Assembly (NCBI RefSeq): GCF_016653465.1
Contig: NZ_NHSQ01000039.1
Coordinates: forward strand, 1-39,497
DNA from: Thiocystis minor
Lineage (GTDB): Bacteria; Pseudomonadota; Gammaproteobacteria; Chromatiales; Chromatiaceae
DNA length: 39,497 nucleotides
Reading direction: 5' to 3'
A program made the position numbers and the translations under genes. The notes under the pieces were generated by a model. That model was not told the DNA's origin, ran no database searches, and saw only the letters and a program-made list of their open reading frames with translations. Position 1 is the first letter of the stretch, and the number at the start of each line of letters is the position of its first letter. Shown here in pieces: positions 1-36,931 of this stretch.

Positions 1-126
1 GATTGTGGGTTCCATCAGACCTCGCCGCCGCTTAATGGTGGCTGGGTCCAACCGCCGGATGCGGAAAACCGCATGTCCGGTGGTGTGGGAGGGCTGACGG
101 GCGCAATCCCGTCAGCCCGACCCGAT
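1..126 (+). mobile_element. 3' end of a group II intron (domains V and VI)
   Basis: Domain V is visible at 52-83. A 7-bp lower stem (52-58 with 77-83) is followed by a two-base GT bulge (75-76), a 6-bp upper stem (59-64 with 69-74) and an AAAA tetraloop (65-68). Domain VI follows: an 11-bp stem 91-101/108-118, then a short GGG/CCC base helix (87-89/121-123) with A120 unpaired, the expected branch-point position about seven bases from the 3' end. The intron then ends near CCCGAT at 126. The intron-encoded reverse transcriptase would lie upstream of the window. Bases 1-51 would belong to domain IV. The fold is read from the sequence; the exact 3' splice site is inferred. Confidence 0.85.
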
Positions 127-498: not shown

Positions 499-573
499 TG
501 GAGCGGGAAACGAGGCTCGAACTCGCGACCCCAACCTTGGCAAGGTTGTGCTCTACCACTGAGCTATTCCCGC
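499..573 (-). tRNA. tRNA-Gly (anticodon GCC)
   Basis: The reverse strand folds as a complete cloverleaf. The acceptor stem is GCGGGAA paired with TTCCCGC, the D arm contains AGCTCAGTGGTAGAGC, the anticodon loop is TTGCCAA (anticodon GCC), and the T arm contains GAGTTCGAGCC. The 3' CCA is encoded (499-501). The order uvrC, pgsA, tRNA-Gly matches E. coli uvrC-pgsA-glyW; the Cys and Leu tRNAs that follow in E. coli are absent here. The D loop is one base shorter than in E. coli glyW. Confidence 0.97.
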
Positions 574-14703: not shown

Positions 14704-15083
14704 AAAACGACATCCGTTGTTGAAAGCACAAATGAACTGACGGTTTCTTGGTGCCCAGGTGAGGACTCCCTTTTTTTTCGTGGTTGATGCTAACGTCCAT
14801 GCCTCCTCACGGCAACAAGCCGGAAGGATGTTTGCCTTGTCCGGAAGACTTTTCTACGTGCTCTTCGTCGCAGAAACAGGGTCGCTCCAACGCCCGACGG
14901 AACCTGTCGAGCATGCTCCCGTCAGCCCGCGAGCAGCCGTTGCGAGTCCGTATTTATACGGATAGCCGATCCTGTCCCGCAAGCTACACTCAATTTCGCA
15001 TAAAGAATAAAGTAAGAAAATTCCGTAGTAGTGATCGACGAGTGGCATATCGGCTTCAGCTTGCTTGGCAAGGGAGGGTGGTC
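14704..15083. other. Divergent intergenic region between chemoreceptor and hydrogenase operon
   Basis: This 380-bp region separates two divergent transcription units and must hold both promoters. The hydrogenase frame stays open through it on the plus strand, but composition and lack of conserved sequence argue against coding. A small palindrome CCGTATTTATACGG (about 14949-14962) and an AT-rich stretch (14997-15025) are the only notable features. AGGGAGG at about 15071-15077 is the ribosome-binding site of the hydrogenase small subunit. I cannot assign -35/-10 boxes with confidence. Confidence 0.4.
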
Positions 15084-16055: not shown

Positions 16056-16130
16056 GGACGTCATCCTCTCGGAGAGCCATCCGAACCATCCGATGTTCGA
16101 TTGATGACCAAGCTCAAGCGGAGGATTGCG

Positions 16131-21258: not shown

Positions 21259-21507
21259 ATGCTCGTCGTGATGATTTTGCTTCTCCTGCCACCAATCCTG
21301 ATGATTCTCTGGCGTTTTTTCAAAGGCCCCGATGCGGCTAACCGCATTCTTGCGCTGGATACGCTCAGCATTCTGGTCATTGCCCTGCTGTCGCTGCTGT
21401 CGCTGTTTTATCAACGCAGCATCTATCTTGACGTGGCGTTGATCTTCGCGGTGGTCGGATTCGCGGGCGTCATCCTCTTCAGTCGTTTTCTGGAAAAGGG
21501 GGTTTAA
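21259..21507 (+). CDS. mrpF: MrpF-like antiporter subunit (first gene of the Ehr/Mrp-type complex)
   Basis: An 82-residue protein with three membrane helices, homologous to MrpF/PhaF/MnhF and to the MbhB subunit of membrane-bound hydrogenase. The family core RFFKGPDAANRILALDTLSI is clear. In Mrp and Mbh complexes this subunit packs with the E and G subunits in the cation-translocation part. AAGG lies about 9 bases before the ATG. The stop is immediately followed by the GTG of mrpG, starting a tightly packed operon. Confidence 0.9.
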   Translation: MLVVMILLLLPPILMILWRFFKGPDAANRILALDTLSILVIALLSLLSLFYQRSIYLDVALIFAVVGFAGVILFSRFLEKGV

Positions 21508-21861
21508 GTGGAGTATCTGGGCTATCTCTTGATGTCTGGAGGCATGTTTTTCTTTTGGGTCAGCGGTTTGGGGCTGATTCGCATGCCCGATGTCCTGACG
21601 CGGATGCACGCCGGCGCCAAGGCGTCGACGCTGGGTTCGCTGCTGATGCTGCTTGGGATGGCCTGTCTGATGCCTGCCTGGGCACCGAAGATCCTCATCA
21701 TCGCGGTCTTTATCCTGCTGACCAACCCACTCAGTTCCTCGGTCCTGGCGCGTGCGGCCTACCGTAGCGGCGCGCAGATGGTGCCGCTGGCCTGTGACGC
21801 CTGCGCCGAACGGAAAGCCGCGCTGACACCGGAAACACCCGCCGAGGAGGCCCAGGCATGA
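21508..21861 (+). CDS. mrpG: MrpG-like antiporter subunit
   Basis: A 117-residue protein with three membrane helices matching MrpG/MnhG/PhaG and MbhC. Visible family residues include GLGLIRMPDVLTRMHAGAKA and TNPLSSSVLARAAYRSG. It starts with GTG directly after the mrpF stop and overlaps the next gene by 4 bp (ATGA). The last 25 residues are a soluble tail containing C-D-A-C, not conserved in the family as far as I know. Confidence 0.9.
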   Translation: MEYLGYLLMSGGMFFFWVSGLGLIRMPDVLTRMHAGAKASTLGSLLMLLGMACLMPAWAPKILIIAVFILLTNPLSSSVLARAAYRSGAQMVPLACDACAERKAALTPETPAEEAQA

Positions 21862-22112
21862 CCGGATTACTCGCCATCGCGTTCTTTGCCTGGATGATCG
21901 GCGCGGCCATCATGGCCATCGTCCAGTCGGATCTCCTGCAATCCGCCCTTGGCCTGTCGCTCCTGAGCCTGGGCGCGGTCGGTCAGTTCTTTCTGCTCCA
22001 GGCACCCGACGTGGCGCTGACCGAGGCGGCCATCGGCGCGGCGGCGAGCAGCTTCGTGATGTTGATGGGCGTGCGCCAGCTTGGACGCACCGAACGGAAG
22101 GATCTCCAATGA
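21858..22112 (+). CDS. MbhD-like subunit (DUF4040; C-terminal MrpA-like domain)
   Basis: An 84-residue, three-helix membrane protein of the DUF4040 type, equivalent to MbhD and to part of the MrpA C-terminal region. Conserved sequence: SLLSLGAVGQFFLLQAPDVA followed by LTEAAIGAA, with the acidic and Asp residues that line the ion path in Mrp/Mbh structures. It overlaps both neighbours by 4 bp, so its translation is coupled to theirs. Confidence 0.85.
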   Translation: MTGLLAIAFFAWMIGAAIMAIVQSDLLQSALGLSLLSLGAVGQFFLLQAPDVALTEAAIGAAASSFVMLMGVRQLGRTERKDLQ

Positions 22113-22876
22113 GCCGCGTCCCACTGCGTAAACGCTTCCGCGTCCAGACCCTGCTGCTGATCCTGCTCTGCGGCTGGCTGCTGATGCTGCATCTGACGCT
22201 CCTGCTCAATCATGGCCTTGACGGACTGACGACAGGCGTCGGCGATACCCTGCTGGCACGCAACAGTGAGACCGCCTCCGCCAATGCCGTGACCTCGGTG
22301 GTGGTGAGCTATCGCGGTTTCGATACCCTCGGCGAAGTGACCGTGCTGTTTCTGGCCGCGACCGGCGTGGGTCTGCTCTTTGCCGGTGGACTGACCTCCT
22401 CCCCCGTTCCCCGCGACCGCGACAGCCATCCCAACGAGGTCATGGTGACGGGAACGCGCCTGCTCTTTCCGACGCTCCTGATGCTCGGCGTCTATGTCGT
22501 CCTGCACGGTCATCTCTCGCCCGGCGGCGGCTTTCAGGGCGGCGTCATCGTCGCCACCGCCTTCTTCCTGCGGATGATCGCCGATCCCGCGTTTACCCTC
22601 GATCACGCGCGGGTCGACTTCTATGAATCGCTGTCGGGCAGCGGCTTCGTGCTGTTTGGGATGCTGGGGCTGGTGCTGGTCAGCACGGCAAGCTTTCTCG
22701 GCAATTTCATCCCGCACCCGGTCGCAGCCATGGGTCAACTCGTGAGCGCCGGCGTCATCCCGCTGATCTATCTGCTGGTCGGTATCAAGGTCGGCGCGGA
22801 GGTTGGCGCGATCTTCCAGGACATGCTGGAACCGGAGCCCGCGCCTGATCACGACCACGCCGCCAAGGAACTGTAA
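22109..22876 (+). CDS. MbhE/MrpB-like fusion subunit
   Basis: A 255-residue membrane protein joining two family units. The N-terminal part has the MbhE-like motif YRGFDTLGEVTVLFLAATGV (about residues 68-87), equivalent to the last helices of MrpA. The C-terminal part is MrpB/MnhB, with HGHLSPGGGFQGG (about 133-145). In Mrp antiporters the same units appear as the MrpA tail and separate MrpB; in Mbh they are MbhE and MbhF. The acidic, His-rich tail (DHDHAAKEL) is soluble. Confidence 0.88.
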   Translation: MSRVPLRKRFRVQTLLLILLCGWLLMLHLTLLLNHGLDGLTTGVGDTLLARNSETASANAVTSVVVSYRGFDTLGEVTVLFLAATGVGLLFAGGLTSSPVPRDRDSHPNEVMVTGTRLLFPTLLMLGVYVVLHGHLSPGGGFQGGVIVATAFFLRMIADPAFTLDHARVDFYESLSGSGFVLFGMLGLVLVSTASFLGNFIPHPVAAMGQLVSAGVIPLIYLLVGIKVGAEVGAIFQDMLEPEPAPDHDHAAKEL

Positions 22877-22878
22877 TC

Positions 22879-23256
22879 ATGCTGGAATTTCTCGATAGCC
22901 CCAGGGTGTTTCACGGCATTTATCTCCTGGGAAGTCTCATGCTGTTTTTTATCGGCCTGTACGGACTGCTCGCCAAGCGGCATCTACTCAAGATCTTTGT
23001 CAGCATCGAGATCATGGAACTCGCGGTCTATCTGATCCTGATCGCGCTTGCCACCTCGCCCGGCGAGACCGCGCCCATTCTTTCGGATGGCCTGCTGACG
23101 TTTACCGGCATGGCCGACCCGATTCCGCAGGCGCTGACCCTCACCGCCATCGTCATCGGCGTGGCGGTGACAGCGCTCGGCACCTCAATGGCGATTCAAT
23201 ATCACCGGCTCACCGGCAAGGTTGGCGTCGGCGAGATGACTGAACTGAAGGATTGA
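22879..23256 (+). CDS. mrpC: MrpC/NuoK-like subunit
   Basis: A 125-residue three-helix protein homologous to NuoK, MrpC/MnhC and MbhG. The conserved helix FVSIEIMELAVYLILIAL contains the membrane-embedded glutamates used for proton translocation in NuoK, and PQALTLTAIVIGVAVTALGT is the typical third helix. It starts 2 bp after the previous stop. Confidence 0.92.
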   Translation: MLEFLDSPRVFHGIYLLGSLMLFFIGLYGLLAKRHLLKIFVSIEIMELAVYLILIALATSPGETAPILSDGLLTFTGMADPIPQALTLTAIVIGVAVTALGTSMAIQYHRLTGKVGVGEMTELKD

Positions 23257-23258
23257 CG

Positions 23259-24734
23259 ATGACACTGCATTTCACGCCCGTCTGGTTCATCGCCGTTCCG
23301 CTGCTGCTGGCCTTTCTGTCGCCGCTGTGGGTCCGGCTGCGTCTGCTCATGCCAATCCTGCTGGGTGCGCATGTCGCACTCTTCGCGCTGGCGCTGTCCT
23401 GGATTCCGACCGTGCGCGTCGCGCCGCTGCTGGAAACCATCGTCATCGCCCCGCCGCTGGGGATTCATCTGCATCTGGATGCGGTCTCGCTGCTGCTGGT
23501 CGCGCTGTTCAACGTCGCCGGAGCCGTCGTCTCGGCCTTTCTCTGGTTGAGCCATGCCGAACCGCATCTGCGCGGGCGTCCGGCTTTCATTCTGATCCTG
23601 CTGCTGATCGCGGGCAGCAGCGGCATGGTGCTGACCGGCGACATCTTCAATCTCTATGTTTTCCTGGAGATCGTCGGCGTGAGCGCCTATGCCCTCACCG
23701 CGCTGCGGCGCGACAAGCAGGCGCTGGAAGCCGGGCTCAAATATCTGATCGTCGGTTCGGTCGCCGCGATCTTTATCCTGTTCGCCATCGTTCTGTTGTA
23801 TCTCCAAACCGGCCAACTGAACCTGGCCGCGCTCGCCCGCGATTTCGGCCACATCCCGGCCCCGATGCAGGCATTGATCGGGTTGCTCATGCTGATCGGC
23901 CTGGCCATCAAGGCCGAACTCTTCCCCTTTAACTTCTGGGTGCCGGATATCTACCGGGGCGCCGATCCCGAGATCACCGCGCTGTTTTCGGGCGTGCTGG
24001 TCAAGGCGTTCCTGTTCGTCCTCTTCCATCTGGTGTTCCTGCTGCTGGCCGATCCCGCCGTGGCGCGGACCTGGCTGATGGCGCTGGGCGCGACCACCAT
24101 GCTCGTCGCGGAGGCCGTCGCGCTGCGCCAACAGGATCTGCGCCGCATGCTGGCCTATTCTTCGCTTGGTCAGGTGGGTCTGATCACGCTGGCGCTCGGC
24201 TTCGCGTCCGAGGCGACCACCGCCGGCGCGCTTTTTCACATGGTCAACCACACCCTGATCAAGCTGCTGCTGTTCCTGCTGACCGCGTTGATGCTGCGGC
24301 GATTCCTGTCGGTTCGTCTGGCGGATCTCCAGGGTCTCGGGCGCGCCATGCCGCTGGCGGCGGGGCTGTTCGTACTCGGCGCGCTAGCCGTGCTGGGCCT
24401 GCCGCCGCTCAGCGGCTTCGCCAGCAAACTCTGGATTCTCAAGGGCTTCGCCGAGGCGCAGGTCTTCTGGCCCATCGCGCTGATCCTGCTGGCCGCGCTG
24501 CTGGAGGCCGGATATTACTTCCGCTGGATCAAGGTCTTTTACGCGCCCGAACCGCCGGTAACGGCGGGTCAAGCCGAGGGTGACTGGGCCTATACGCCGC
24601 TGTTGCTGATCGCGGGTCTGCTGCTGTTGCTCGGCGTGGCGCCCTTCCTGCTGGAAGACTGGTTCGTGCAGGCTGCAAAGGCACTGCTGGGACGCGGGGC
24701 CTTTCTGGAAAGCGTGCTGGGAGTTCAGCCATGA
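23259..24734 (+). CDS. mrpD: MrpD/NuoN-like proton-translocating subunit
   Basis: A 491-residue polytopic protein of the NuoL/M/N and MrpA/D family (about 14 helices). The key ion-path residues are present: Glu137 in NLYVFLEIVGVSAYAL and Lys218 in GLAIKAELFPFNFWVPDIY, the positions known to be essential in Bacillus MrpD; HMVNHTLIKLLLFLL carries the second Lys/His site. ATG 23259 has AAGGA 7 bases upstream; an in-frame TTG at 23253 would overlap the mrpC stop. It overlaps the next gene by 4 bp. Confidence 0.94.
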   Translation: MTLHFTPVWFIAVPLLLAFLSPLWVRLRLLMPILLGAHVALFALALSWIPTVRVAPLLETIVIAPPLGIHLHLDAVSLLLVALFNVAGAVVSAFLWLSHAEPHLRGRPAFILILLLIAGSSGMVLTGDIFNLYVFLEIVGVSAYALTALRRDKQALEAGLKYLIVGSVAAIFILFAIVLLYLQTGQLNLAALARDFGHIPAPMQALIGLLMLIGLAIKAELFPFNFWVPDIYRGADPEITALFSGVLVKAFLFVLFHLVFLLLADPAVARTWLMALGATTMLVAEAVALRQQDLRRMLAYSSLGQVGLITLALGFASEATTAGALFHMVNHTLIKLLLFLLTALMLRRFLSVRLADLQGLGRAMPLAAGLFVLGALAVLGLPPLSGFASKLWILKGFAEAQVFWPIALILLAALLEAGYYFRWIKVFYAPEPPVTAGQAEGDWAYTPLLLIAGLLLLLGVAPFLLEDWFVQAAKALLGRGAFLESVLGVQP

Positions 24735-26503
24735 ACCTGATCGTTAAATTGCTCTTTCTCGCCCTCTCGCTGACGCCCGCCATGACCCTGCTGACCTGGG
24801 ATGGCGGGGTCGCCTGGCCGCTGTTCGGCGGGATCACGCTGCTGTTCGACCTCAATCCGGTGCCGGGCTTTTTCCTGCTGCTGCTGGCGCTCGGCGCGCC
24901 TCTGGTCGCCCTACCAATGTTGCGCGGGCCGCGCGACGAGCCGGCGTATGCACTCTACGCGCTGCTGCTGTTGGGCATGCAGCTTCTGCTGCTCGCAGGC
25001 GATTTCATCGGCTTTTTCGTCGGCTGGGAGATCATGACCTGGAGCAGTTATCTGCTTCTGCTGCGCTCTCCACGGACCAATCTGGAAGGCGCGCAGTCCT
25101 ATATCCTCTTCAACCTTGCCTCCGCCTTTCTGTTGCTGGCCGGAATGCTGGTTTTCTACAGCTTCACCGGCGACTTCAGAATTCATGCCGTCACCGGACT
25201 GAATACCCTGCAACAACTGTCGCTGCTGACCCTGTTCGGGCTCGCCTTCCTGATCAAGGTCGGCGCGCTGCCGCTGCATCTCTGGGTGCCGCGCAGCTAC
25301 GATCAGGCGCCCGATGTCTTCAGCGCCTTCCTCTCGGCGCTGATGTCGAAGATGGGGATCTATGCGCTGATCCTGCTGCTGACGCTGTTCCCGGAAGGGC
25401 TCGCGGGACTCTTCGGCCAGTTTCTCAAGGGTCCGGCGGCGGGTTACGTGCTGGCCTGGATCGGGGTCATCACCTCCATCGTCGCCACCTTCAAGGCGAT
25501 CTCGCAGGAGGACATGAAGCGTCTGCTGGCCTATTCCTCCATCGCGCAGGTTGGGTATATCGTGACTGCGATCGGGGTGGGCAGTTCGCTGGCCATCGGC
25601 GGGGCGTTGTTTCATTCGCTAGTGCATACCCTGGTCAAGCTGCTGCTGTTCATCGCGATTGCCGGGATCGTCCTGCAAACCGGACACCGCCGTTTCATCG
25701 ATCTCGGCCAGCTCATCGGCCGTATGCCGATCTCCTTTTTCGGCGTCCTGATCGGGATCATCGGTCTGGCCGGCATGCCGCCGCTGCCCGGATTCGCGTC
25801 CAAATATCTGATCTACGTTTCCCTGCTGGAGGCGCACTGGCTGCTGCTGCTCGCCGCCATGATCCTCTCCAGCACCGCGGCCTTCGTCTATTGCTACAAG
25901 CTGATCTACGGTCCCTTCCTGGGTCACGCCAATTCGCCCGAGGCCCGGGTGGCGACCGAAGCGCCCTGGCAGTATCTCGTGCCGCAGATCGTCCTCATGG
26001 GCTTGCTGGTCGCGCTCGGGATCTTTCCGGGCTGGGCCATCGAGATCCTCATCGATCCCGTCCTGACCGCCCTGGGGATGACGCCCATCGGCGCGCCGGC
26101 CTGGGGACAACTCGCCACCGCCTATGGCGGCTATGACGGCGTGGTGCTGATGTCGGTGTTCGCGACGGTTTTCGTGCTGGTAACGGCGATCTTTTTCCTG
26201 CTGCGCGGGCGGATGCGTCAGGCGGGTAGCCCCTACGATCTCAGTTATGCGGGCGAGGTTCCAACCGCCGAGACACCCTTGCATTATGGTGCAGGCCTGG
26301 GTCGCGAACTGCGCCGTATCCCGCTGGTGGGCTGGATTCTGAGTCACAGCACACAGGGTTTTTATGCCGGCCTGGTCCGCCAAACCCAGGCTGCGGCCGG
26401 ACTTCTGAGCGGGCTCTATTCGGGCAATCCGCAGACCTGGATCCTGCTCGCCGTCCTGATCCTGGCCGCCACCCTGACCGTCCAGACCCTGACCGGAGCC
26501 TGA
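24731..26503 (+). CDS. Second NuoL/MrpD-like ion-translocating subunit
   Basis: A 590-residue polytopic protein of the proton-conducting family, longer at the C-terminus than its neighbour. Landmarks are Glu100 in GFFVGWEIMTWSSYLLL, Lys176 in FLIKVGALPLHLWVPRSYDQ and the FHSLVHTLVKLLLF helix. The C-terminal ~120 residues include one more helix and an amphipathic linker (YGAGLGRELRRIPLVGW) before a final anchor, somewhat like the NuoL lateral arm or HyfB. Two large antiporter-like subunits make this complex comparable to Mbx/Mbh-type machines with two or more ion channels. Confidence 0.93.
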   Translation: MNLIVKLLFLALSLTPAMTLLTWDGGVAWPLFGGITLLFDLNPVPGFFLLLLALGAPLVALPMLRGPRDEPAYALYALLLLGMQLLLLAGDFIGFFVGWEIMTWSSYLLLLRSPRTNLEGAQSYILFNLASAFLLLAGMLVFYSFTGDFRIHAVTGLNTLQQLSLLTLFGLAFLIKVGALPLHLWVPRSYDQAPDVFSAFLSALMSKMGIYALILLLTLFPEGLAGLFGQFLKGPAAGYVLAWIGVITSIVATFKAISQEDMKRLLAYSSIAQVGYIVTAIGVGSSLAIGGALFHSLVHTLVKLLLFIAIAGIVLQTGHRRFIDLGQLIGRMPISFFGVLIGIIGLAGMPPLPGFASKYLIYVSLLEAHWLLLLAAMILSSTAAFVYCYKLIYGPFLGHANSPEARVATEAPWQYLVPQIVLMGLLVALGIFPGWAIEILIDPVLTALGMTPIGAPAWGQLATAYGGYDGVVLMSVFATVFVLVTAIFFLLRGRMRQAGSPYDLSYAGEVPTAETPLHYGAGLGRELRRIPLVGWILSHSTQGFYAGLVRQTQAAAGLLSGLYSGNPQTWILLAVLILAATLTVQTLTGA

Positions 26504-26504
26504 C

Positions 26505-27416
26505 ATGATCCATCACCTCCTCGACGCACTGGCCATGCTCGGCATGAGCTATGTCATCGGCTTCCTCTTCTATGGCTTCTACCGCCAGTTCAACGCCCGC
26601 GTCCAACGCCGCTGGGGACCGAGCATCTGGCAGAACTTCTTCGATAACATGAAGTTCCTGTTCAAGTCGGAGACCGTCAGTCATGGCGCCATGTTCTTCT
26701 TTGGCCCCATGATTATCATGGCAGGCGCGATCACCACGGTACTCTTCGTCCCCTTCCTGAAGGACTCCATCTGGCTCCAGGGCTTTTCGCAATCCGGCAA
26801 CCTGATCCTCATCATCTATCTGCTGGTCGTCGGCCCGCTTGGGAACGCCCTCGCCGTTGGCTCTAGCGGCAACCCCTATGGCGTGATGGGCGTGACCCGC
26901 GGTCTCACCCGGCTGATGGGGCTGGAAGTGCCGTTCTTTCTCGGTCTGGCCCTCGTGATGCTGCAACACCAAAGCGCCTCGGTGCACGTCATCATGGCCG
27001 CGCAGGACGGCATCGCCAATTGGAACCTTTTCACCAATCCGATTGCCTTCATTGTCATGCTGTTGCCCTTCATCGCCAGTCAGAACGCCTCGCCCTTCGA
27101 TGTCGTCGGCGCGCCGGTCGAGGTCTACGCCGGGCCGCGGGTCGAATTCGGCGGGCGACTGCTGGGCATCCTCATGACCCAGAACATGATGATGACCGTC
27201 GCCAAGCTGGTGCTGATCGTCGACCTCTTTCTGGGCGGCGCCACGACGGTACCGATTTTGCTTGTCAAGGCGTTCGCGCTCTTTCTGTTGACCGCCATGA
27301 TCAGTCTGGCCTTTCCGCGCCTCAAGACCGAGCAGACGGTGGATTTTTTCTGGAAGATCCCCCTCGCGCTGGGTGTCATTGGGGTCATCGCAACCGTCTG
27401 GTTGCCCTGGAGTTAA
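26505..27416 (+). CDS. NuoH/HyfC-like membrane-arm subunit
   Basis: A 303-residue membrane protein of the NuoH/MbhM family, which couples the peripheral electron-transfer module to the membrane arm. Visible landmarks are RVQRRWGPSIWQNFFDNMKF near the N-terminus, then GVMGVTRGLTRLMGLEVPF and the family-typical ASPFDVVGAPVEVYAGPRVE, with the acidic residues that form the quinone/E-channel entrance in complex I. The stop codon TAA is the first three bases of repeat copy D, which separates it from the NuoB-like gene. Confidence 0.93.
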   Translation: MIHHLLDALAMLGMSYVIGFLFYGFYRQFNARVQRRWGPSIWQNFFDNMKFLFKSETVSHGAMFFFGPMIIMAGAITTVLFVPFLKDSIWLQGFSQSGNLILIIYLLVVGPLGNALAVGSSGNPYGVMGVTRGLTRLMGLEVPFFLGLALVMLQHQSASVHVIMAAQDGIANWNLFTNPIAFIVMLLPFIASQNASPFDVVGAPVEVYAGPRVEFGGRLLGILMTQNMMMTVAKLVLIVDLFLGGATTVPILLVKAFALFLLTAMISLAFPRLKTEQTVDFFWKIPLALGVIGVIATVWLPWS

Positions 27417-27608
27417 ACCGCGCCTAGCGCGGTATACACAGTTTTTGGGATTGATTTGGCCTCGGCAGCATTGAGTAAAGTGTCGGAGCTGACGCGGTTT
27501 AAGATTTTAAAAATATAAAGTTTTAAACCGTGTCTCAACCGAGGCCGGAAAAACCCCCAAAGCTGGACACAATATGAAAATTTCGCAATTCACTCTGGAC
27601 GCGGTTTA
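27414..27608 (+). repeat. Family-1 bipartite palindromic repeat, full copy D
   Basis: Module 1 spans 27414-27501 (TAAACCGCGCC to GACGCGGTTTA), a 22-base AT-rich spacer follows (27502-27523), and module 2 spans 27524-27608 (TAAACCGTGTC to GACGCGGTTTA). The total of 195 bp equals copy A. The element fills the entire gap between two operon genes: its first TAA is the nuoH-like stop codon and only AAAA separates its last base from the ATG of the nuoB-like gene. Confidence 0.88.
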
Positions 27609-27612
27609 AAAA

Positions 27613-28245
27613 ATGTATCACAAGAACGAATGCGAAGGATTTCAGTGCGAGCAGCGGATGCTTGAGGATTCGCTGGGTCAGCCGAACGGCGAATTCGGCA
27701 TCCTTGACCGGCTGGTCGCCTGGTTTCGTCAACGCAGCCTGTTCGTGCTCGCCTACGGCACCGGCTGCGGGGCGATCGAGATGCGCCCATTGATGACCAG
27801 CCGCTTCGATGCCGAACGCTTCGGGATCATCGGCGCGCCCACCCCGCGTCAGGCCGACGTGCTGGTGGTCAGCGGCTATCTCGCGATCAAGACACTCAAG
27901 CGGGTCATTCGCAGCTACGAACAGATGCAGGAACCGAAATACGTCATCGCGCTCGGCAGTTGCGCCATCAACGGCGGGATGTACTGGGACTCCTACAACA
28001 CCATCAAGCAGTTGGATCAGTATCTTCCGGTCGATATGTACATCAACGGCTGCATGCCGCGTCCCGAGGCGCTGATCGAGGGCTTCGTGGCCCTGCAAAA
28101 GCGGATCAAGCGCGGGGACAAGGGCGGTTACGCGCGCTATCGCGAGAACATCGACTGGTACAAGGCCAATCAGCGCAAGGTGCTCGGCGACAACATGCCG
28201 CCCGACTACACCTACGATTGGTATCACACCGGAGACCTCGCCTGA
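27613..28245 (+). CDS. NuoB-like Fe-S subunit with an incomplete N2-cluster motif
   Basis: A 210-residue homologue of NuoB and hydrogenase small subunits of group 4. In complex I the N2 4Fe-4S cluster is held by a tandem Cys-Cys plus two later cysteines. Here the tandem is C52-G53 (YGTGCGAIEM), followed by C117 (GSCAINGGMY) and C147 (NGCMPRPEA), so only three of four ligands remain. Two N-terminal cysteines (C7, C12) are extra. The rest of the fold is conserved (TPRQADVLVVSG, EPKYVIALG). The region before the ATG is repeat copy D and contains no recognisable Shine-Dalgarno; translation may rely on the AT-rich leader. Confidence 0.92.
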   Translation: MYHKNECEGFQCEQRMLEDSLGQPNGEFGILDRLVAWFRQRSLFVLAYGTGCGAIEMRPLMTSRFDAERFGIIGAPTPRQADVLVVSGYLAIKTLKRVIRSYEQMQEPKYVIALGSCAINGGMYWDSYNTIKQLDQYLPVDMYINGCMPRPEALIEGFVALQKRIKRGDKGGYARYRENIDWYKANQRKVLGDNMPPDYTYDWYHTGDLA

Positions 28246-28808
28246 TGCTGGACGCACTCCTGCCACGGCTTCACGGCTTCGAGATCCTCGCGCAGACTCA
28301 GCGCGGCGAGCGACAGGCTTTCCTGCGCGTCCCCAAGGCCCAGCTCTTTTCGCTGCTCGTCCTGCTCAAACAGGGACACGGTTTCGTGACCCTGACGACC
28401 ATCGCCTGCGCCGACTGGATCGAGGACGAGGTTTTTGGTCTGACCTATCTGCTCGAAACCGCCGGGCGCGACCGCGTCCTCGGGGTGCAAACCCACATCG
28501 GACGCGAGGGCGAGGACTTGGAGACCTGCATGCCGCTCTGGCCCCAGGCCGAGATTTTCGAGCGTGAATTGCACGAGATGTTCGGTATTTCGATCGTCGG
28601 ACACCCCAGCCTTGGCGATTTTATGCTGGAGGGCTGGACCCACACACCGCCCATGCGACGCGAGTTCGACACGCTGAAATTCGTGCAGGAGAATTACCCG
28701 ATGCGCGAGGGCCGCGAGGACAATCAGGACGTTCGCGAAGCGATCCGCAAACTCAAGGAGTCAAAGAAGGCCAGCAAAGCCCAGCCGGCCGGCGGAGAGT
28801 CGTCATGA
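28245..28808 (+). CDS. NuoC-like subunit
   Basis: A 187-residue homologue of NuoC/HycE N-terminal domain, which braces the NuoB-NuoD interface. The family core is visible: FVTLTTIACADWIEDEVF, then QAEIFERELHEMFGISIVGH and the LLEGW-type motif (here FMLEGW). The C-terminal ~25 residues are a charged, Lys/Glu-rich tail. Start and upstream stop overlap as TGATG, and its own stop overlaps the next ATG by 4 bp, so translation is coupled. Confidence 0.9.
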   Translation: MLDALLPRLHGFEILAQTQRGERQAFLRVPKAQLFSLLVLLKQGHGFVTLTTIACADWIEDEVFGLTYLLETAGRDRVLGVQTHIGREGEDLETCMPLWPQAEIFERELHEMFGISIVGHPSLGDFMLEGWTHTPPMRREFDTLKFVQENYPMREGREDNQDVREAIRKLKESKKASKAQPAGGESS

Positions 28809-29935
28809 ACGATCCAGTCCAGAACCAGAGAGACGCCGGCGGCACCATCAAGATCTTCCACGGGCCGCAGCATCCCGGCGTCACCGGCAACATGAGCATG
28901 GAACTGGACCTCGACGGCGAAACCATCGTCAAGGCCACCACCCATGTCGGCTATCTGCATCGCGGCTTCGAGAAAATGATCGAGCGGCGCACGATCATTC
29001 AGGCGTTCACCATCGTCTGCCGGATCTGCGTGCCCGAACCCGACCCCAACGAAGAAAATTATGCGCGCGGCGTCGAAGAACTCGCCGGACTGACGATCAG
29101 CGAGCGGGCCAAGTATATCCGTGTCATGGTCCTGGAGATGGCGCGGCTCCAGGCCCATTATCTCTGGATGGCCGGTCAGGGCGGCTCGATCGGGCATGAA
29201 GTCGTCCCGCAATGGGCGGTCGGCGAGCGCGATTTCATCCTGGATCTGTTCGAGCAACTGACCGGCGGGCGGGTGTACCACATGTACATCTATCCGGGCG
29301 GCGTCAAGCGCGACCTGCCGGATGGCTTTCTCGACCGTCTGCGCGATCTACTGGTCGAGCTGGAACGTCGCCTGCCCGAATACGACCGCATCTTCTTCGA
29401 CAACGCCGGGGTGAAGAAACGGCTGCAAAACGTCGGCGTGGTCAAACGCGACGAGGCCATCGCCAACGGCTATACCGGCCCGGTAATCCGTGGCTGCGGC
29501 ATCCCGCGCGACGTGCGCCGTGATTCGCCCTATCTGGTCTACGATCAGCTCGAATTCGATGTACCCACCCAGACCGGCTGCGACGCCTATGCCCGCGCGC
29601 TGGTGCGCCGCGCCGAGATGGATCAGAGCATCCGTATCCTGAGACAAGTCATCGACCGGATGCCGGCGGGCGAGATTCAATGCAAACTGCCCAAGCACCG
29701 CAAATTCAAGCTCCCTCGGGGCGAAACCTTTGTGCAGACCGAATCCGCGCGCGGCGCCTTCAGCTATTACATGGCCGGCGACGACAGCGAATATCTGCGC
29801 CGGCTGCAAGTCCGCGGCCCGTCCATCGTCCATGCCTACACCCTGCTGGAACCGCTGCTGGTCGGCGCGCAGTTATCGGATGTGGCGCTGATCATGAACT
29901 CGCTGGGAATCTGTCCGCCGGAGATCGAACGTTAA
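28805..29935 (+). CDS. NuoD-like large subunit with CxxE/CxxE in place of NiFe-binding CxxC motifs
   Basis: A 376-residue homologue of NuoD and group 4 hydrogenase large subunits. Family landmarks are FHGPQHPGVTGNMSMELDLD, TTHVGYLHRGFEKM, LQAHYLWMAGQGGSIG and RGCGIPRDVRRDSPY. In hydrogenases an N-terminal RxCGxC and a C-terminal DPCxxC hold NiFe. Here the first reads RICVPE (C75, E78) and the second ICPPE (C370, E373): in both, the first Cys is kept and the second is Glu. A normal NiFe site is excluded, yet the residues are not random as in NuoD. The protein ends at the natural family C-terminus (EIER). It belongs with energy-converting-hydrogenase-related (Ehr) complexes by inference. Confidence 0.93.
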   Translation: MNDPVQNQRDAGGTIKIFHGPQHPGVTGNMSMELDLDGETIVKATTHVGYLHRGFEKMIERRTIIQAFTIVCRICVPEPDPNEENYARGVEELAGLTISERAKYIRVMVLEMARLQAHYLWMAGQGGSIGHEVVPQWAVGERDFILDLFEQLTGGRVYHMYIYPGGVKRDLPDGFLDRLRDLLVELERRLPEYDRIFFDNAGVKKRLQNVGVVKRDEAIANGYTGPVIRGCGIPRDVRRDSPYLVYDQLEFDVPTQTGCDAYARALVRRAEMDQSIRILRQVIDRMPAGEIQCKLPKHRKFKLPRGETFVQTESARGAFSYYMAGDDSEYLRRLQVRGPSIVHAYTLLEPLLVGAQLSDVALIMNSLGICPPEIER

Positions 29936-29951
29936 ACGTGACGAGGTACCG

Positions 29952-30161
29952 ATGCAGCATCCTTTCACACTGGAATATTGGCAGGATGACGGGTGGTATG
30001 TTGGTCGACTGAAAGAGATTCCGGGTGTTTTCAGCCAAGGCGAAAACTTGGAGGAGCTGGAAACCAACATCGAAGACGCCTATCGCATGCTCCTTGAAAG
30101 CGATTCCGACGGCAGTCGTCCATCCGCCATGACCAAGCAAATTCTGCTTGATGTAGCGTGA
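29952..30161 (+). CDS. hicB: HicB-like antitoxin
   Basis: A 69-residue protein with the partially degraded RNase H-like fold of HicB: FTLEYWQDDGWYVGRLKEIP followed by GVFSQGENLEELETNIEDAY. HicB neutralises HicA and usually autoregulates the pair; this short form lacks an obvious C-terminal helix-turn-helix or ribbon-helix-helix, so DNA binding is uncertain. Its stop overlaps the hicA GTG. The pair is inserted between the nuoD-like and nuoI-like genes of the complex operon. Confidence 0.88.
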   Translation: MQHPFTLEYWQDDGWYVGRLKEIPGVFSQGENLEELETNIEDAYRMLLESDSDGSRPSAMTKQILLDVA

Positions 30162-30337
30162 AGCGCGGGAACTTCGTGCGTGAACTAATCGCCGCTGGCT
30201 GCTCTCTCAAGCGTCATGGCAGTCGGCACGACATCTATGTCAATCCGGCGAATGGCATGCAGGCACCGGTCCCCAGACACCCGGAGATCAAGGACAGTCT
30301 CTGCGCATTGATTCGGAAACAATTGCGACTTGTTTAA
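30158..30337 (+). CDS. hicA: HicA-like mRNA interferase toxin
   Basis: A 59-residue frame starting with GTG and overlapping hicB by 4 bp. It shows the HicA double-stranded RNA-binding-like fold: MKRGNFVRELIAAGCSLKRH, then GSRHDIYVNP and the C-terminal VPRHPEIKDSL. His24 in the Gly-Ser-x-His context is the expected catalytic residue for mRNA cleavage. The order antitoxin-toxin is the reverse of E. coli hicAB. The stop TAA (30335-30337) lies inside the end of the MITE that follows. Confidence 0.88.
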   Translation: MKRGNFVRELIAAGCSLKRHGSRHDIYVNPANGMQAPVPRHPEIKDSLCALIRKQLRLV

Positions 30338-30570
30338 TTCTACTTTGTTACCTTCAAAAAATCTTTAAGTGTTTAAATTTTATGATAATAAACAAAAATA
30401 CACATAAACAATAGGGTTCTAGTGGCGCGTTGAGCGCCTATAATCACCCATAAACCGCCAACATCTATCTTCAATAGGGGCATAGTAAATGAAGATTTAT
30501 TGCGCCTAATAAAAAATAACTTAAAATTCATTAATTTATGCGACAGTCAAAGTTAACAAAGTAGAATTAA
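30334..30570 (+). mobile_element. 237-bp MITE with TTAA-ending terminal inverted repeats (family 2)
   Basis: The ends are TTAATTCTACTTTGTTA and its exact reverse complement TAACAAAGTAGAATTAA, a 17-bp perfect terminal repeat that extends imperfectly to 22. Both termini finish in TTAA, which could be a duplicated target. The interior is AT-rich with a small GGCGC/GCGCC hairpin (30424-30438) and no coding frame. A second copy in opposite orientation begins at 39372 and is identical over the 126 bases visible. Insertion here supplies the hicA stop codon and separates hicBA from the nuoI-like gene. Confidence 0.85.
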
Positions 30571-30591
30571 GCACCCAAGGTAAAGCAGCTC

Positions 30592-30984
30592 ATGGCCTGG
30601 AATCTCGATCTAAAGGGGCTGATTCAGCCCTTCAGCGCGCTCAAGTTTAGCGTCAAGCAGCCCTACACCCTGAACTATCCCGTCGAAAAACGTCAGGATG
30701 TCGATGGCTATCGCGGTTTTCACCTCAACACGCTGAGTCTCTGCGTGGGTTGCGGGAACTGTCAGGATATCTGCATGAACGAGGCCATCGACATGGTCGA
30801 GGCCGTGGGCGAGATTAACCCCAAGAACGCCAGCGGACTGGTGCCCCGGATCGACTACGGGCGCTGCTGCTGGTGCGGTCTCTGCACCGATGTCTGCGGC
30901 CCGGACTCGCTGCGTCTCGAAAGCGACTGCATCTATGCCAGCGAGGATGCCGGGAGTTTTCTGTACATGCCGAAGGATCAATAA
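30592..30984 (+). CDS. NuoI-like 2x[4Fe-4S] ferredoxin subunit
   Basis: A 130-residue protein homologous to NuoI/HyfH/MbhN that wires electrons into the NuoB-like subunit. Two complete CxxCxxCxxxC motifs are present: C51, C54, C57, C61 and C92, C95, C98, C102, so both 4Fe-4S clusters should form. No NADH- or formate-oxidising module (NuoEFG, FdhF) is nearby, so the donor is probably ferredoxin or an unidentified protein. It starts 21 bp after the MITE and is followed directly by mrpE. Confidence 0.92.
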   Translation: MAWNLDLKGLIQPFSALKFSVKQPYTLNYPVEKRQDVDGYRGFHLNTLSLCVGCGNCQDICMNEAIDMVEAVGEINPKNASGLVPRIDYGRCCWCGLCTDVCGPDSLRLESDCIYASEDAGSFLYMPKDQ

Positions 30985-31458
30985 ATGCAACGACTTCAAT
31001 GGGGTTTTGTTCTCTTCATCGTCTGGCTGGGTCTGACCAACCCATTTCATCCGCAGGAGCTGCTGGCGGGGGCCATCATCTCCGCGGCCCTGGTCTGGCT
31101 AACCATTCCGGCGCGAGCCGTCAACGCGGAAAACCAGCCCTGGAGCCTCATTGGACTCCTGACGTATTTCCCGGTCTTCTTAAAGGCGCTGGTCCTTGCG
31201 AACATCGATGTCGCCAGCCGGGTGCTGAACCCCAGGCTGCCAATCAACCCGGGTATCGTGCGAGTTCCAACCAAGCTGACCCTTCCCTATCAACGTCTCA
31301 TCCTCGCCAACAGCATCACCCTGACGCCCGGCACCATCACGCTGGAGATGGACAATCAGGACATCTACATCCACTGGATCGCGGTCGAGGATGCCGATCC
31401 CGAGCGTGCGGGCGAGACGATCAAGGGTGAGATGGAACGGGCAATTACACGGATCTGA
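30985..31458 (+). CDS. mrpE: MrpE-like antiporter subunit (last gene of the complex)
   Basis: A 157-residue protein homologous to MrpE/MnhE and MbhA: two N-terminal membrane helices (WGFVLFIVWLGL; LLAGAIISAALVWL), a third hydrophobic stretch, and a conserved soluble domain with NSITLTPGTITLEMDNQDIY. It follows the nuoI-like stop without any gap. Finding the mrpE-like gene at the far end, separated from F and G by nine genes, differs from the compact E-F-G order of Mrp operons and suggests rearrangement. Confidence 0.9.
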   Translation: MQRLQWGFVLFIVWLGLTNPFHPQELLAGAIISAALVWLTIPARAVNAENQPWSLIGLLTYFPVFLKALVLANIDVASRVLNPRLPINPGIVRVPTKLTLPYQRLILANSITLTPGTITLEMDNQDIYIHWIAVEDADPERAGETIKGEMERAITRI

Positions 31459-32920: not shown

Positions 32921-35900
32921 TTAAACGGACGCGAGACGACGTGTCTGCGTCTCCGGCATCGGCGCGGACAGCAGGATCCGCTCATAGGAAACCTTCACCG
33001 CATCCGACCCCAGGAGTTGCCGCAATCGCTTCAGCAAGGCATCCGTCGGCTGCACGCGCCAGGCATTGCCCAGCACCAGGTCGCCGACCGCGCCGGGCCG
33101 GCGATACCGCAGACGCACCGGCAGATCGCCATCGCGGAAGGCGGCAAGCGCCTCCCGCAGCGACTCGATCCGCGCGGCACCCTGGTCGTAATCCGCCGGG
33201 TCCGAGAGATCCAGGATCAGGGCCAGATGATCCGCCGCCGACTCCCGCGCCTGCTCGAAGGTGCGCACGGCGTCGGCGCGCAAGGTCCAGGCATCGCGGA
33301 ACTCGTCGAAATTCAAGCTCCCGACGATGCTCAGGAGTTGATCCGGAACCAGCAGATTGCGGAACTGATCGTAAAGCTCGGAGAAGACGGTCGCCTCGAT
33401 GCGTCCGGTGCGGTCGTCGAGCAGCACCGAGCCCATGCGCCCGCGCGGGGTTTTGCCATGACGGACGCTGACCACCAGCCCCACTACCGTGCGCTTCTCG
33501 CGATCGCGCCGATCGCGCCGGCCCAGCTCCCGGTCGGTCTCCAGCAGTCGGGCGATGCGGGCGCCGCCCATCGCCTTAAGCTCGGCCTCGTAACGGTCGA
33601 TGGGGTGTCCGGTCAGATAGAGCCCGAGCGTCTCTTTCTCGCCCTGGAGTCGTTGTTCGTCCTCCCAATCGGCGTGGATCTCGCTCGCCAACTGCGGATC
33701 CAGCGGAGGCGCGGCGGTCGGCTCCAGCGCGCCGAACAGATCCGCCTGCCCCGCAGCCTGGGTGGCGTTATGCTGCTCGGCGGTCTTGAGCGCCAGGGGC
33801 AGTTGCGCCATCAGGGTCGCGCGATTGGGACCGAGTCCGTCCAACGCGCCGGCGCGAACCAACGCCTCCAGCACGCGCCGGTTGACCTTATGCAGGTCGA
33901 TCCGACGGCAGAAATCCCACAGGTCGCGGAAATCCCCGCCCGCCGCGCGCACTTCCAGGATGGATTCGATCGCCGCCTCGCCCACCCCTTTGATCGCGCC
34001 CATGCCGTAAATAACGGTGCCCGCGTCGCCGATGGTGAAGCGGTACGCGGAACGATTGATGGTCGGCGGCTCGACCCGGAGCTTCATCGCCCGGCACTCG
34101 TCGATCAGGGTCACCACCTTGTCGGTATTGTCCATGTCCGCGGAGAGCACGGCCGCCATGAAAGCCGCCGGATAGTGGGCCTTGAGCCAGAGGGTTTGAT
34201 AGCTGACCAGGGCGTAGGCGGCGGAGTGGGAGTTAGAGCAACAAAGGCCCGACGTAAGCAGAAAATTGTGTTCGGGATGGTCTACTTCGAGATCGTAACC
34301 TTGATGCCATCCGACGAAAGTGACTCGTACCGGCCGCCGAAACACCGCATGCCCTGCCAACTCTCCATGCCCCTGTTCTCGAACCGCGGGATCCGTCCCC
34401 CACACTCGCTCATTCGTTTGCAGGATTTTCCAGAGCGGAACTTGCCCGGCATCGGTCAGCCATTTGTGATCGAGGGTGCATTGCTCGCTTGTACCATCGT
34501 CGAATTCCACTAACCATAAAGGCACTTGCCCATGATCGTGCAGGGCAACCACTGTGGATTGCACAAGACTGCCATCGGGATTCATGCTAAAAACAACGTC
34601 GCCAGCTCGGCAGTCTTCGATATGTTTGTCGCTGGTTAGCGTGCGGATTTTTGTGAGGCGGTGTAGGGTCTTGTTAAATCCATAACCCGCAAATTTGTCC
34701 ATTAAATCAAAAATATAAGTCGCAACCGACGCATCGATCCCGCGCGCGACCGAACCCTGCTCGAAGATCTCCCGCTGCTTATCCATCTCGGACTGTTTCT
34801 TTTTGCCCATTGCCCTACGAAGAATATCCGCCCCGCCCAGCGAATACCCCGCCAGCACCTGCGCGATCTGCATCACCTGCTCCTGGTAGAGGATGATGCC
34901 GTAGGTGGGTTTGAGGACGGGCTCCAGGTCGGGATGCGGATAGGCGACATCGGCGCGCCCATGCTTGCGGTTAATGAAGTCGTCGACCATGCCCGATTGC
35001 AGCGGGCCGGGTCGGAACAGCGCGACCAGCGCGGTGATGTCGCCGAAGTTGTCGGGCTGGAGCTTCTTGATCAGCTCTTTCATGCCGCGCGATTCGAGCT
35101 GAAACACGGCGGTGGTCTGACACTGCTTGAGCAGATTGAAGGCGCGTCCGTCGTGCGCGTCGATGCGGTCGATGTCGACCGGCGGCTCGCCCTGACTCAG
35201 GCGGATAGGGTTGATGGTCTTGAGCGCCCAGTCGATGATGGTGAGCGTGCGCAGTCCCAGAAAGTCGAACTTGACCAGCCCGACCTGTTCCACGTCGTCC
35301 TTGTCGAACTGGGTAACCAGATTCACTCCGCCCGGTTCGCAATAGAGCGGCGCGAAGTCGGTCAGCTTGGTGGGCGCGATGACGACGCCGCCGGCATGCT
35401 TGCCGGCGTTGCGAGCTAACCCCTCCAGTTTGCGGGCCATGTCGATGAGCGCGCGCACTTCCTCGTCGTCCTGGTAGGCGAGCTTGAGGTCGTCGCTCTC
35501 GACCAGCGCCTTCCCGAGGGTCATGCCCAGCTCGAAGGGTACCATCTTGGCGACCCGGTCGACGAAGCCATAAGGATGCCCCATCACCCGCCCGACATCG
35601 CGCACCACCGCCTTGGCCGCCATGGTGCCGAAGGTGATGATCTGCGAGACCGCCTCGCGACCGTATTTATCGGCCACATAGTCGATGACCCGGTCGCGGC
35701 CTTCCATGCAGAAATCCACGTCGAAGTCGGGCATGGACACCCGCTCGGGGTTCAGAAAGCGCTCGAACAGCAGGTCGTGCTCGATCGGATCCAGGTCGGT
35801 GATCTTGAGCACGTAGGCGACCAGCGACCCCGCGCCCGAGCCGCGCCCCGGCCCGACCGGGATGCCGTTGTCCTTGGCCCACTGGATGAAGTCGGCGACG

Positions 35901-36931
35901 ATCAGGAAGTAACCGGGGAAGCCCATCTGGACGATGACGTCGAGTTCCAGCGCGAGGCGTTCGTCATAAGCGCGGCGCTGCTCGGCGAAATCGGGAGCGT
36001 TCCGGTCGAAAATGCGTTCCAGACGCCAGTCGAGTCCCTGGCGGGATTGTTCGGCAAAAAAGGCATCGATCGTCATCCCGGCCGGCACCGGAAAGGCGGG
36101 CAGATAATTCTTGCCCAGCGTCAGTTCCAGATTGCAGCGTTTGGCGATCTCGACCGAGTTTTCCAGCGCCTCCGGGAGATCAGCGAAGAGTTCAACCATC
36201 TCGTCCGGGGTACGCAGGTACTGCTCGTCGCTGTAGAGGCGAGGACGGCGCGGATCGTCCAGGGTGCGCCCCTCGTGGATGCAGACCCGCGCCTCGTGGG
36301 CCTCGAAGTCGCTCGCCGCCAGAAAACGCACATCGTTGGTGGCGACCACCGGCACGCCGCGGCGGATCGCCAGATCGACGCTCAACTCGATCAGTTCCGC
36401 CTCCGACTCGCGGCCGGTACGGATCAGCTCCAGATAATAGCGGTCGCCGAACGCGGTCAGCCAGCGGTCGAGCAGACGTTCGGCCACCTCGGGCCGCCCG
36501 TTGAGCAGGGCGCGGGCGACATCGCCCTGGGGACCGCCCGAAAGCGCGATCAGGCCGCCGGCGGCGGATTCGATCCACTCGGGGTCGACCTGAGGCACGC
36601 CCAGATGCTGACCTTCCACATAGCCGCGCGAGATCAGCCGGGTCAGATTGCGATAGCCCGGCTCGTTCTGGACCAGCAGCACCAGTCGATGCGGTTGATT
36701 GGCGTCCTCCGGATTGCGTACCCAGAGATCGGCCCCGGCGATCGGTTTGAGACCGGCCCCGACCGCAGCCTTGTAAAACCGCACCAGCGAGAAGAGATTG
36801 ACCTGATCGGTGACGGCCACCGCCGGCATTCCGGCCGCCGCCACGGCCTTGACCAGCGGCTTGATCCGCACCAGGCCGTCGACCAGCGAGTATTCGGAGT
36901 GAAGATGCAGATGGACGAAACGGGGATCCAC
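32921..36931 (-). CDS. dnaE: DNA polymerase III alpha subunit, precursor containing a mini-intein
   Basis: The replicative polymerase catalytic subunit. The precursor is 1336 residues; removal of the 146-residue intein (residues 755-900) leaves 1190, near the usual ~1160. The N-terminal PHP domain begins HLHLHSEYSLVDGLV. The polymerase active-site aspartates are in MPDFDVDFCMEGRDR at about residue 400. The helix-hairpin-helix and OB-fold (VVGLVVSVRHGKTPRGRMG) follow. The intein interrupts the highly conserved GFNK-SHSAAYALVSYQT. The start is a GTG with AGGA upstream (MDPRFVHLHLHSEY). The gene is followed closely by the PqiA-like gene. Confidence 0.96.
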   Translation of the reverse strand: MDPRFVHLHLHSEYSLVDGLVRIKPLVKAVAAAGMPAVAVTDQVNLFSLVRFYKAAVGAGLKPIAGADLWVRNPEDANQPHRLVLLVQNEPGYRNLTRLISRGYVEGQHLGVPQVDPEWIESAAGGLIALSGGPQGDVARALLNGRPEVAERLLDRWLTAFGDRYYLELIRTGRESEAELIELSVDLAIRRGVPVVATNDVRFLAASDFEAHEARVCIHEGRTLDDPRRPRLYSDEQYLRTPDEMVELFADLPEALENSVEIAKRCNLELTLGKNYLPAFPVPAGMTIDAFFAEQSRQGLDWRLERIFDRNAPDFAEQRRAYDERLALELDVIVQMGFPGYFLIVADFIQWAKDNGIPVGPGRGSGAGSLVAYVLKITDLDPIEHDLLFERFLNPERVSMPDFDVDFCMEGRDRVIDYVADKYGREAVSQIITFGTMAAKAVVRDVGRVMGHPYGFVDRVAKMVPFELGMTLGKALVESDDLKLAYQDDEEVRALIDMARKLEGLARNAGKHAGGVVIAPTKLTDFAPLYCEPGGVNLVTQFDKDDVEQVGLVKFDFLGLRTLTIIDWALKTINPIRLSQGEPPVDIDRIDAHDGRAFNLLKQCQTTAVFQLESRGMKELIKKLQPDNFGDITALVALFRPGPLQSGMVDDFINRKHGRADVAYPHPDLEPVLKPTYGIILYQEQVMQIAQVLAGYSLGGADILRRAMGKKKQSEMDKQREIFEQGSVARGIDASVATYIFDLMDKFAGYGFNKTLHRLTKIRTLTSDKHIEDCRAGDVVFSMNPDGSLVQSTVVALHDHGQVPLWLVEFDDGTSEQCTLDHKWLTDAGQVPLWKILQTNERVWGTDPAVREQGHGELAGHAVFRRPVRVTFVGWHQGYDLEVDHPEHNFLLTSGLCCSNSHSAAYALVSYQTLWLKAHYPAAFMAAVLSADMDNTDKVVTLIDECRAMKLRVEPPTINRSAYRFTIGDAGTVIYGMGAIKGVGEAAIESILEVRAAGGDFRDLWDFCRRIDLHKVNRRVLEALVRAGALDGLGPNRATLMAQLPLALKTAEQHNATQAAGQADLFGALEPTAAPPLDPQLASEIHADWEDEQRLQGEKETLGLYLTGHPIDRYEAELKAMGGARIARLLETDRELGRRDRRDREKRTVVGLVVSVRHGKTPRGRMGSVLLDDRTGRIEATVFSELYDQFRNLLVPDQLLSIVGSLNFDEFRDAWTLRADAVRTFEQARESAADHLALILDLSDPADYDQGAARIESLREALAAFRDGDLPVRLRYRRPGAVGDLVLGNAWRVQPTDALLKRLRQLLGSDAVKVSYERILLSAPMPETQTRRLASV
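34232..34669 (-). other. In-frame mini-intein within dnaE, non-canonical Thr at position 1
   Basis: The insert encodes 146 residues between K754 (GFNK) and S901 (SHSAAY), exactly where other DnaE proteins are continuous. Intein (Hint) landmarks are present: a block-A-like KHIEDCRAGDVVFSMNPDG, block B CTLDHKWLT with the Thr-x-x-His pair, block F GYDLEVDHPEHNF and block G GLCCSN followed by Ser as +1 nucleophile. No homing endonuclease domain fits in this length. Unusual points: the first intein residue is Thr rather than Cys or Ser, the penultimate residue is Ser instead of His, and two Cys precede it. Codons are more AT-rich than the flanking dnaE. Confidence 0.88.

Follow-up and report, generated by a model that had tools for sequence, protein, structure and literature searches.

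Among described systems, the closest to the locus reported here is MBS, the sulfane sulfur reductase of the hyperthermophilic archaeon P. furiosus (Mbs/Mbx, 6u8y). In the account given in PMC7684303, MBS catalyses its reaction at the proximal [4Fe-4S] cluster, which in the NuoB-like subunit MbsJ is held by C28, C93 and C123 only, C25 being too far away; removal of the unique iron of this cluster abolished ~98% of the activity, and the variants C25A and C85A/C385A retained activity. C85 and C385 of MbsL are described there as adjacent to the proximal cluster. The abstract of that work has neither protons nor amino acid residues participating in the mechanism, its main text leaves E88 and D388 unmentioned, and the variants in its mechanism section are Cys-to-Ala changes (PMC7684303). 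Two bacterial systems can be likened to ours by their descriptions: the MBX of Thermotoga maritima, a 13-subunit MBS homologue in which sulfur induces mbxA (PMC9431562), and the 13-gene MBS cluster of strain 3DAC (Zhurongbacter), which is described as archaea-derived and reported to respond to sulfur (PMC10356935). Ehr complexes are similar in being group 4 relatives without NiFe ligands and with Mrp-like subunits, as described in PMC6349859, but form a loose class, for part of which that source proposes a link to formate dehydrogenase.

The window analysed here is a stretch of 39,497 nucleotides from the purple sulfur bacterium Thiocystis minor (contig NZ_NHSQ01000039.1). Judged by profiles and by matches to solved sequences, the thirteen genes at 21259-31458 cover every one of the 13 MBS subunit types, including the two MrpD-like subunits MbsH and MbsH' and the Mrp-type Na+ module. 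Each of the five subunits compared (NuoD-, NuoB- and NuoI-like and both MrpD-like) has its best solved sequence match in MBS (6u8y). An earlier, sequence-only reading of this DNA had placed a homologue of complex I and group 4 hydrogenases beside Mrp genes here, which holds, the neighbourhood being this MBS-type gene set. Its features are as follows.

21259-21507 (+): MrpF/MbsB-like subunit, first operon gene (PF04066)
21508-21861 (+): MrpG/MbsC-like subunit (PF03334)
21858-22112 (+): MbhD/MbsD-like subunit (PF13244)
22109-22876 (+): MbhE+MrpB-like fusion, MbsE (PF20501, PF04039)
22879-23256 (+): MrpC/MbsG-like subunit, NuoK/MrpC-like (PF00420)
23253-24734 (+): MbsH/MrpD-like antiporter subunit, 493 aa (sole match at E <= 1e-60 is 6u8y_H, E 1.6e-72)
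24731-26503 (+): MbsH'-like antiporter subunit, 590 aa (PF00361; best match 6u8y_X, E 5.4e-62)
26505-27416 (+): MbsM/NuoH-like membrane anchor (PF00146)
27613-28245 (+): MbsJ/NuoB-like subunit (best solved match 6u8y_J, E 3.9e-65; TGCG motif with one N-terminal Cys)
28245-28808 (+): MbsK/NuoC-like subunit, ATG at 28245 (PF00329; profile run on 28242-28808)
28805-29935 (+): MbsL/NuoD-like subunit in the catalytic position, 376 aa (PF00346; best solved sequence match 6u8y_L)
29952-30337 (+): HicB/HicA-like toxin-antitoxin pair, outside the complex (PF07927 over the cut-off; HicB-like below the cut-off)
30592-30984 (+): MbsN/NuoI-like two-[4Fe-4S] subunit, stand-alone, 130 aa (best solved match 6u8y_N, E 1.2e-17)
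30985-31458 (+): MrpE/MbsA-like subunit, last gene (PF01899)

The HicBA-like pair sits between the nuoD-like and nuoI-like genes, and the exact HicA string of the window is present in L008 and absent in L034 and L007. In the antiporter subunits, 9 of the 10 pump-axis residues named for MbsH and MbsH' are identical by hand count: E138, K250, H330 and K393 of MbsH (counted on the alignment) and E128, K217, K248, H336 and K399 of MbsH' (counted on the printed alignment) are conserved, whereas E219 of MbsH is replaced by Lys.

The nuoD-like protein contains both motifs that the sequence-only reading had pointed to, C75-V-P-E78 and, at the C-terminal end, C370-P-P-E373-I-E-R-stop. In an alignment with the host's own group 4 [NiFe] hydrogenase (Mbh type, L002; RICGIC and DPCVSCTER), which has a homologous large subunit and NuoB/NuoC-like neighbours but, unlike the nuoD-like protein, keeps all four ligand cysteines (RICGIC, DPCVSC), residues 75, 78, 370 and 373 fall on these four cysteines, so that one Cys of each pair has turned into an acid. 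This confirms that the Cys-to-Glu change is alike in both motifs, and the view that the NiFe site was lost in a patterned way and not by decay is upheld. The NiFe-type pair of CxxC motifs is absent, CxxE standing at both sites, and a hydrogenase reading of the protein was set aside on these ligand residues. The same four residues recur in all six readable relatives (83-98% identity) from clade A, as we label the window's clade of 20 rows in the tree described below, which shows that the CxxE pair is not a sequencing accident; a seventh relative, L013, has no C-terminus. MbsL of P. furiosus, aligned with the same product, reads RICVPEPD and NCPPDIDR. The CxxE/Cxx-acid pair is thus an MBS trait, already known from MbsL and hence not new: both proteins have CVPE as the first motif and CPP-acid as the second, and keep two of the four NiFe cysteines (C85 and C385 in MbsL) with acids in place of the other two. 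They differ in the second acid, Glu here and Asp in MbsL, and are 44% identical.

The best match of the nuoD-like protein among solved sequences is 6u8y_L (MbsL, E 8.3e-97); complex I (E 3.2e-65 and weaker) and MBH (E 7.5e-45) follow. For a structural comparison we used an alignment-based AlphaFold2 model (93 sequences, mean pLDDT 91.7) and discarded a single-sequence model with a mean pLDDT of 33.9. By E-value the first structural match is the complex I chain 6yj4_D and the second is 6u8y_L (TM 0.92, rmsd 2.2), and many complex I chains score alike; as these chains and 6u8y_L share one fold, the fold by itself cannot decide between MBS and complex I.

Conservation at the four positions was followed in 101 rows, 98 of them distinct: 80 loci of a genome scan, the 20 loci L007-L026 and the window. 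Because the genome scan contributes the best 80 of at least 574 confirmed stretches (of 581), these rows are nearest relatives; neither of the two search patterns contained the CxxE motifs. L013, L046 and L076, which have no readable C-terminus, enter neither the tree nor the counts at positions 370 and 373. Position 75 is Cys in 94 rows and Ala in 7, and position 78 is Glu in 81 and Asp in 20, an acid in all 101. At position 370 there are 74 Cys, 24 Tyr and 3 gaps (Cys in 74/98 readable rows), and at position 373 there are 93 Glu, 3 Asp, one Ala, one Gly and 3 gaps, which makes an acid in 96 of the 98 readable rows; the exceptions are the Ala of L081 and the Gly of L112, which lies at the end of a contig. 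Ala75 always comes together with Tyr370 (7/7 rows), and both cysteines are found in 18/18 clade A rows with a readable C-terminus. A further 19 loci of Chromatiaceae have CVPE/CPPE in 10 cases, AVPE/YPPE in 6 and CVPE/YPPE in 3. On the tree (98 rows) the fewest changes needed are 2, 2, 2 and 3 for columns 75, 78, 370 and 373. From the residue counts in the 101 rows and 19 loci, together with the changes on the tree, the acids have been retained and the cysteines lost in an order that follows the clades. The four columns are conserved, yet not exceptional for the nuoD-like protein, ranking by entropy 79 (position 75), 105 (78), 121 (370) and 78 (373) among 362 columns. Free variation of both Cys and both Glu, which would have spoken against a shared site in the sequence-only reading, is thus seen only for the cysteines, which vary by clade; the acids hardly vary.

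The TGCG motif and the single N-terminal Cys of the NuoB-like subunit point to three cysteine ligands for its proximal [4Fe-4S] cluster. The counts for this subunit cover 91 rows, of which L050 and L073 are without the first motif, apparently truncated where their contigs begin. All readable NuoB-like rows have the MbsJ ligands C28 (89/89), C93 (91/91) and C123 (91/91). The residue after C28 is Gly in 89/89 rows where complex I has Cys, so the tandem cysteine of complex I NuoB is absent, and the position of the non-ligand C25 of MbsJ is Gly in 70/89 rows and Cys in 19/89, the window having Gly in contrast to P. furiosus. This three-Cys pattern, which by sequence is shared with the P. furiosus complex, matches what the published MBS cluster mechanism predicts. 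The quinone residues H38 and Y87 of Nqo4 align with T27 and V76 of the nuoD-like protein; in the 101 rows position 27 is Thr in 83, Glu in 17 and Ser in one, and position 76 is Val throughout. P. furiosus MBS likewise has no quinone His/Tyr, and a quinone-reductase reading was set aside because this pair is absent. The window complex resembles respiratory complex I (NuoB/NuoD) in fold, homologous subunits and coupling architecture, but differs from it in the missing quinone His/Tyr, the missing NuoB tandem cysteine and the two cysteines retained at NiFe positions.

In a tree of 107 rows (98 bacterial rows, P. furiosus MbsL and, as references, three sequences of complex I and five of group 4 hydrogenases), MbsL groups with the bacterial rows in a single clade (100/100), which stands next to complex I and is separate from the group 4 hydrogenases. 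MbsL falls among the bacterial rows with L078, L082 and L101 (100/99; nearer join 97/77), on a branch of length 1.4 that makes its exact position unsure. Members of clade A come from purple sulfur bacteria and from Sulfurovum/Nitratifractor-like Campylobacterota. Among the matches listed, the named record closest to the window is that of an uncultured Thiocystis MAG (98%), and other records of Chromatiaceae, at 82-85%, are Thiorhodococcus mannitoliphagus, Chromatium okenii and another MAG; in the record of the C. okenii copy (L046:2444-3534) the frame of the nuoD-like gene is broken, and the L013 copy ends alike. Of 210 genomes of the family, 102 have a homologue at E <= 1e-90 (36/61 genera, all clades together), and 18 of these 102 have the window's own type (identity 76% or more for complete matches, read from the table).

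Relatives of the complex are spread over many bacterial phyla and show at least two designs of electron entry. The NuoI-like gene is stand-alone in 15/15 clade A rows where it is seen (13 distinct), five rows showing none in the locus, and this is so in both the purple sulfur bacteria and the Campylobacterota of the clade. Outside clade A, a NuoI-like domain and a GltD-like NAD(P)H flavoprotein are on one ORF in 68 of the 72 rows where the gene is seen; the four rows without the fusion are L052 and L053, which reach contig ends, L083 and L015. By profile scan the fusions of L048, L084 and L111 are PRK13984-like (654, 878 and 928 bits), and the window's NuoI-like protein matches the N-terminal part of PRK13984 (E 4.5e-38). 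A profile search of the host genome found no place matching both halves of PRK13984; none of its 14 matches exceeded the cut-off of 946 bits, and its GltD-like matches reached at most 257 bits. As this cut-off is missed even by the real fusions of the three relatives, and is reached in 1/14 control genomes, the absence rests on there being no place that covers both halves. There are four GltD-like places in the host genome, one of them in the window at 4964-6274. These arrangements suggest ferredoxin input for the stand-alone NuoI-like subunit, and the fusion suggests that the complexes of those relatives are NAD(P)H-fed MBS-type complexes. In a Thiotrichaceae MAG, an RnfC-like protein (PF13375, PF01512; L096:9403-10761) is encoded directly after a clade C nuoD-like gene and possibly represents a third design. 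We found no description of the complex in Chromatiaceae or of the NuoI-GltD fusion in the open-licence PMC literature, which is weak evidence of absence. What is new here is that the acids persist without the cysteines, that the three cluster ligands do not vary in the bacterial rows read, and that electron entry follows different designs.

Taken together, we consider it probable that the locus encodes a bacterial MBS-type complex acting as a ferredoxin-fed, ion-pumping reductase of sulfane sulfur (polysulfide), used in dark sulfur reduction; its donor, substrate, direction and ion are what we infer for this host. Electrons would enter at the stand-alone two-cluster NuoI-like subunit and travel on to the proximal [4Fe-4S] cluster in the NuoB-like subunit. 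There, in the cavity that the NiFe centre once filled, the one iron without a cysteine ligand would reduce polysulfide or another disulfide, with the energy coupled to the two MrpD-like proton channels and the Mrp-type Na+/H+ module. The different substrate proposed by the sequence-only reading is on this account likely. The CxxE pair would be the inherited MBS signature of an emptied NiFe pocket, in which the cysteines are leftovers and the acids at 78 and 373 probably shape or charge the cavity wall. The host genome (5.3 Mb) has dsrA and pyruvate:ferredoxin oxidoreductase (PFOR) over their cut-offs, which in 14 control genomes were exceeded in none for dsrA and in 4 for PFOR, and in dark fermentation ferredoxin reduced from pyruvate could be re-oxidised with stored sulfur, yielding H2S and an ion gradient. 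C. okenii is described as 'possibly' oxidising glycogen to PHB, with stored sulfur as the electron sink that is reduced to H2S; no hydrogenases were predicted for the strain, and the description does not name the enzyme of the stored-sulfur step (PMC6374484). A ferredoxin-fed MBS-type complex would suit this role, C. okenii itself carrying the clade A copy with the broken frame, and purple sulfur bacteria thereby gain a concrete candidate enzyme for the dark reduction of stored sulfur. Several findings speak against the MBS-type reading: the structural search has a complex I chain first and 6u8y_L second, MbsL is only 44% identical and on a long branch (1.4), E219 of MbsH is Lys here, the host also has the L002 hydrogenase as a possible sink for ferredoxin electrons, and about half of the family genomes have no homologue. 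Many carriers, moreover, are sulfur oxidisers, whose main metabolism is not the reduction of sulfur.

The sequence-only reading had taken the four residues for a possible four-ligand site of two Cys and two Glu. In its strong form, a real metal site (e.g. Fe, Zn or Mn) with a chemistry of its own, this has in its favour the symmetric change at the four NiFe ligand positions, the CxxE/CxxE or CxxD/CxxE pairs of most rows, and the presence of both cysteines in all readable clade A rows and 10 further loci. Across homologues, though, the acids are kept and the cysteines are not: Tyr370 stands in 24/98 rows and Ala75 in 7/101, with Tyr in 9 and Ala in 6 of the further 19 loci, and the four columns are not outstandingly conserved. 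MbsL C85A/C385A is moreover reported to be still active (PMC7684303). On this evidence a metal site of two Cys and two Glu is unlikely, and one with its own chemistry we regard as highly improbable. The supposed new metal site becomes instead a testable point on MBS, with cysteines dropped in some clades, acids kept and the three cluster ligands invariant where readable. A bolder form of the MBS-type reading, in which carboxylates 78 and 373 are functional, in proton delivery or in steering polysulfide at the open iron, and the complex is the missing dark sulfur-reduction enzyme of purple sulfur bacteria or runs in reverse, is possible but doubtful. If true, functional acids would amend the MBS mechanism as published, in which no protons or residues take part (PMC7684303).

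Mainly reversed operation, with an ion gradient built by light or respiration pushing electrons uphill from sulfide or polysulfide to ferredoxin, which would then serve nitrogenase or carbon fixation, would fit the occurrence of clade A in both purple sulfur bacteria and Sulfurovum/Nitratifractor-like Campylobacterota, lineages that oxidise sulfur and need low-potential electrons, and the stand-alone NuoI-like subunit in both. We nevertheless think it unlikely, since the P. furiosus complex is described as a sulfur reductase and purple bacteria usually also have Rnf for low-potential electrons. Less probable still is a quinone-reducing, ferredoxin-linked variant of complex I: fold and subunit order do resemble complex I, and the top structural match by E-value is one of its chains, but the quinone His/Tyr are absent (T27, V76), as is the NuoB tandem cysteine, and an ordinary NuoD is encoded separately in the host genome. 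The older proposal for P. furiosus Mbx, repeated in PMC6349859, of a ferredoxin:NAD(P)+ oxidoreductase could draw on the GltD-like NAD(P)H flavoprotein fused to NuoI in 68/72 rows outside clade A where it is seen. The window's NuoI, however, is without a GltD-like domain and no such fusion was found in the host genome, where a separate GltD-like partner may exist, and the fusion is equally compatible with NAD(P)H-fed sulfur reduction; we give this proposal very little credence.

Upstream of the MBS-type operon, the window has at 14784-19131 a hydrogenase small subunit, a multihaem c7/c3-like cytochrome and a [NiFe] large subunit in a row, the last with both CxxC motifs present by eye. Around the operons of other genomes, a Rex repressor precedes in L061, with the same Pfam pair in L070 and a similar arrangement by eye in L071 and L082, and ArsR-family regulators adjoin in L090 and L091 and, by eye, in L093. 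A gene resembling dihydroorotate dehydrogenase lies just upstream in L056 (by profile, NF005741) and, by eye, in L060 and L085. A rubrerythrin-like gene follows the operon in L048 (12891-13346), with similar cases by eye in L091, L104 and L110, and in a spirochaete (L084:13668-15377) the operon is followed by a gene for a protein with DUF1858 and two DUF2249 stretches, the latter being reminiscent of TusA-like sulfur carriers. Within the window, DnaE (DNA polymerase III alpha) at 32921-36931 (-) has an insertion of ~110 residues near 756-868, which gave no intein match in Pfam at E <= 0.001 and which by eye, from its motifs, resembles a mini-intein. At its left end, the window carries a group II intron piece at 50-126 (+) and a tRNA at 502-573 (-).
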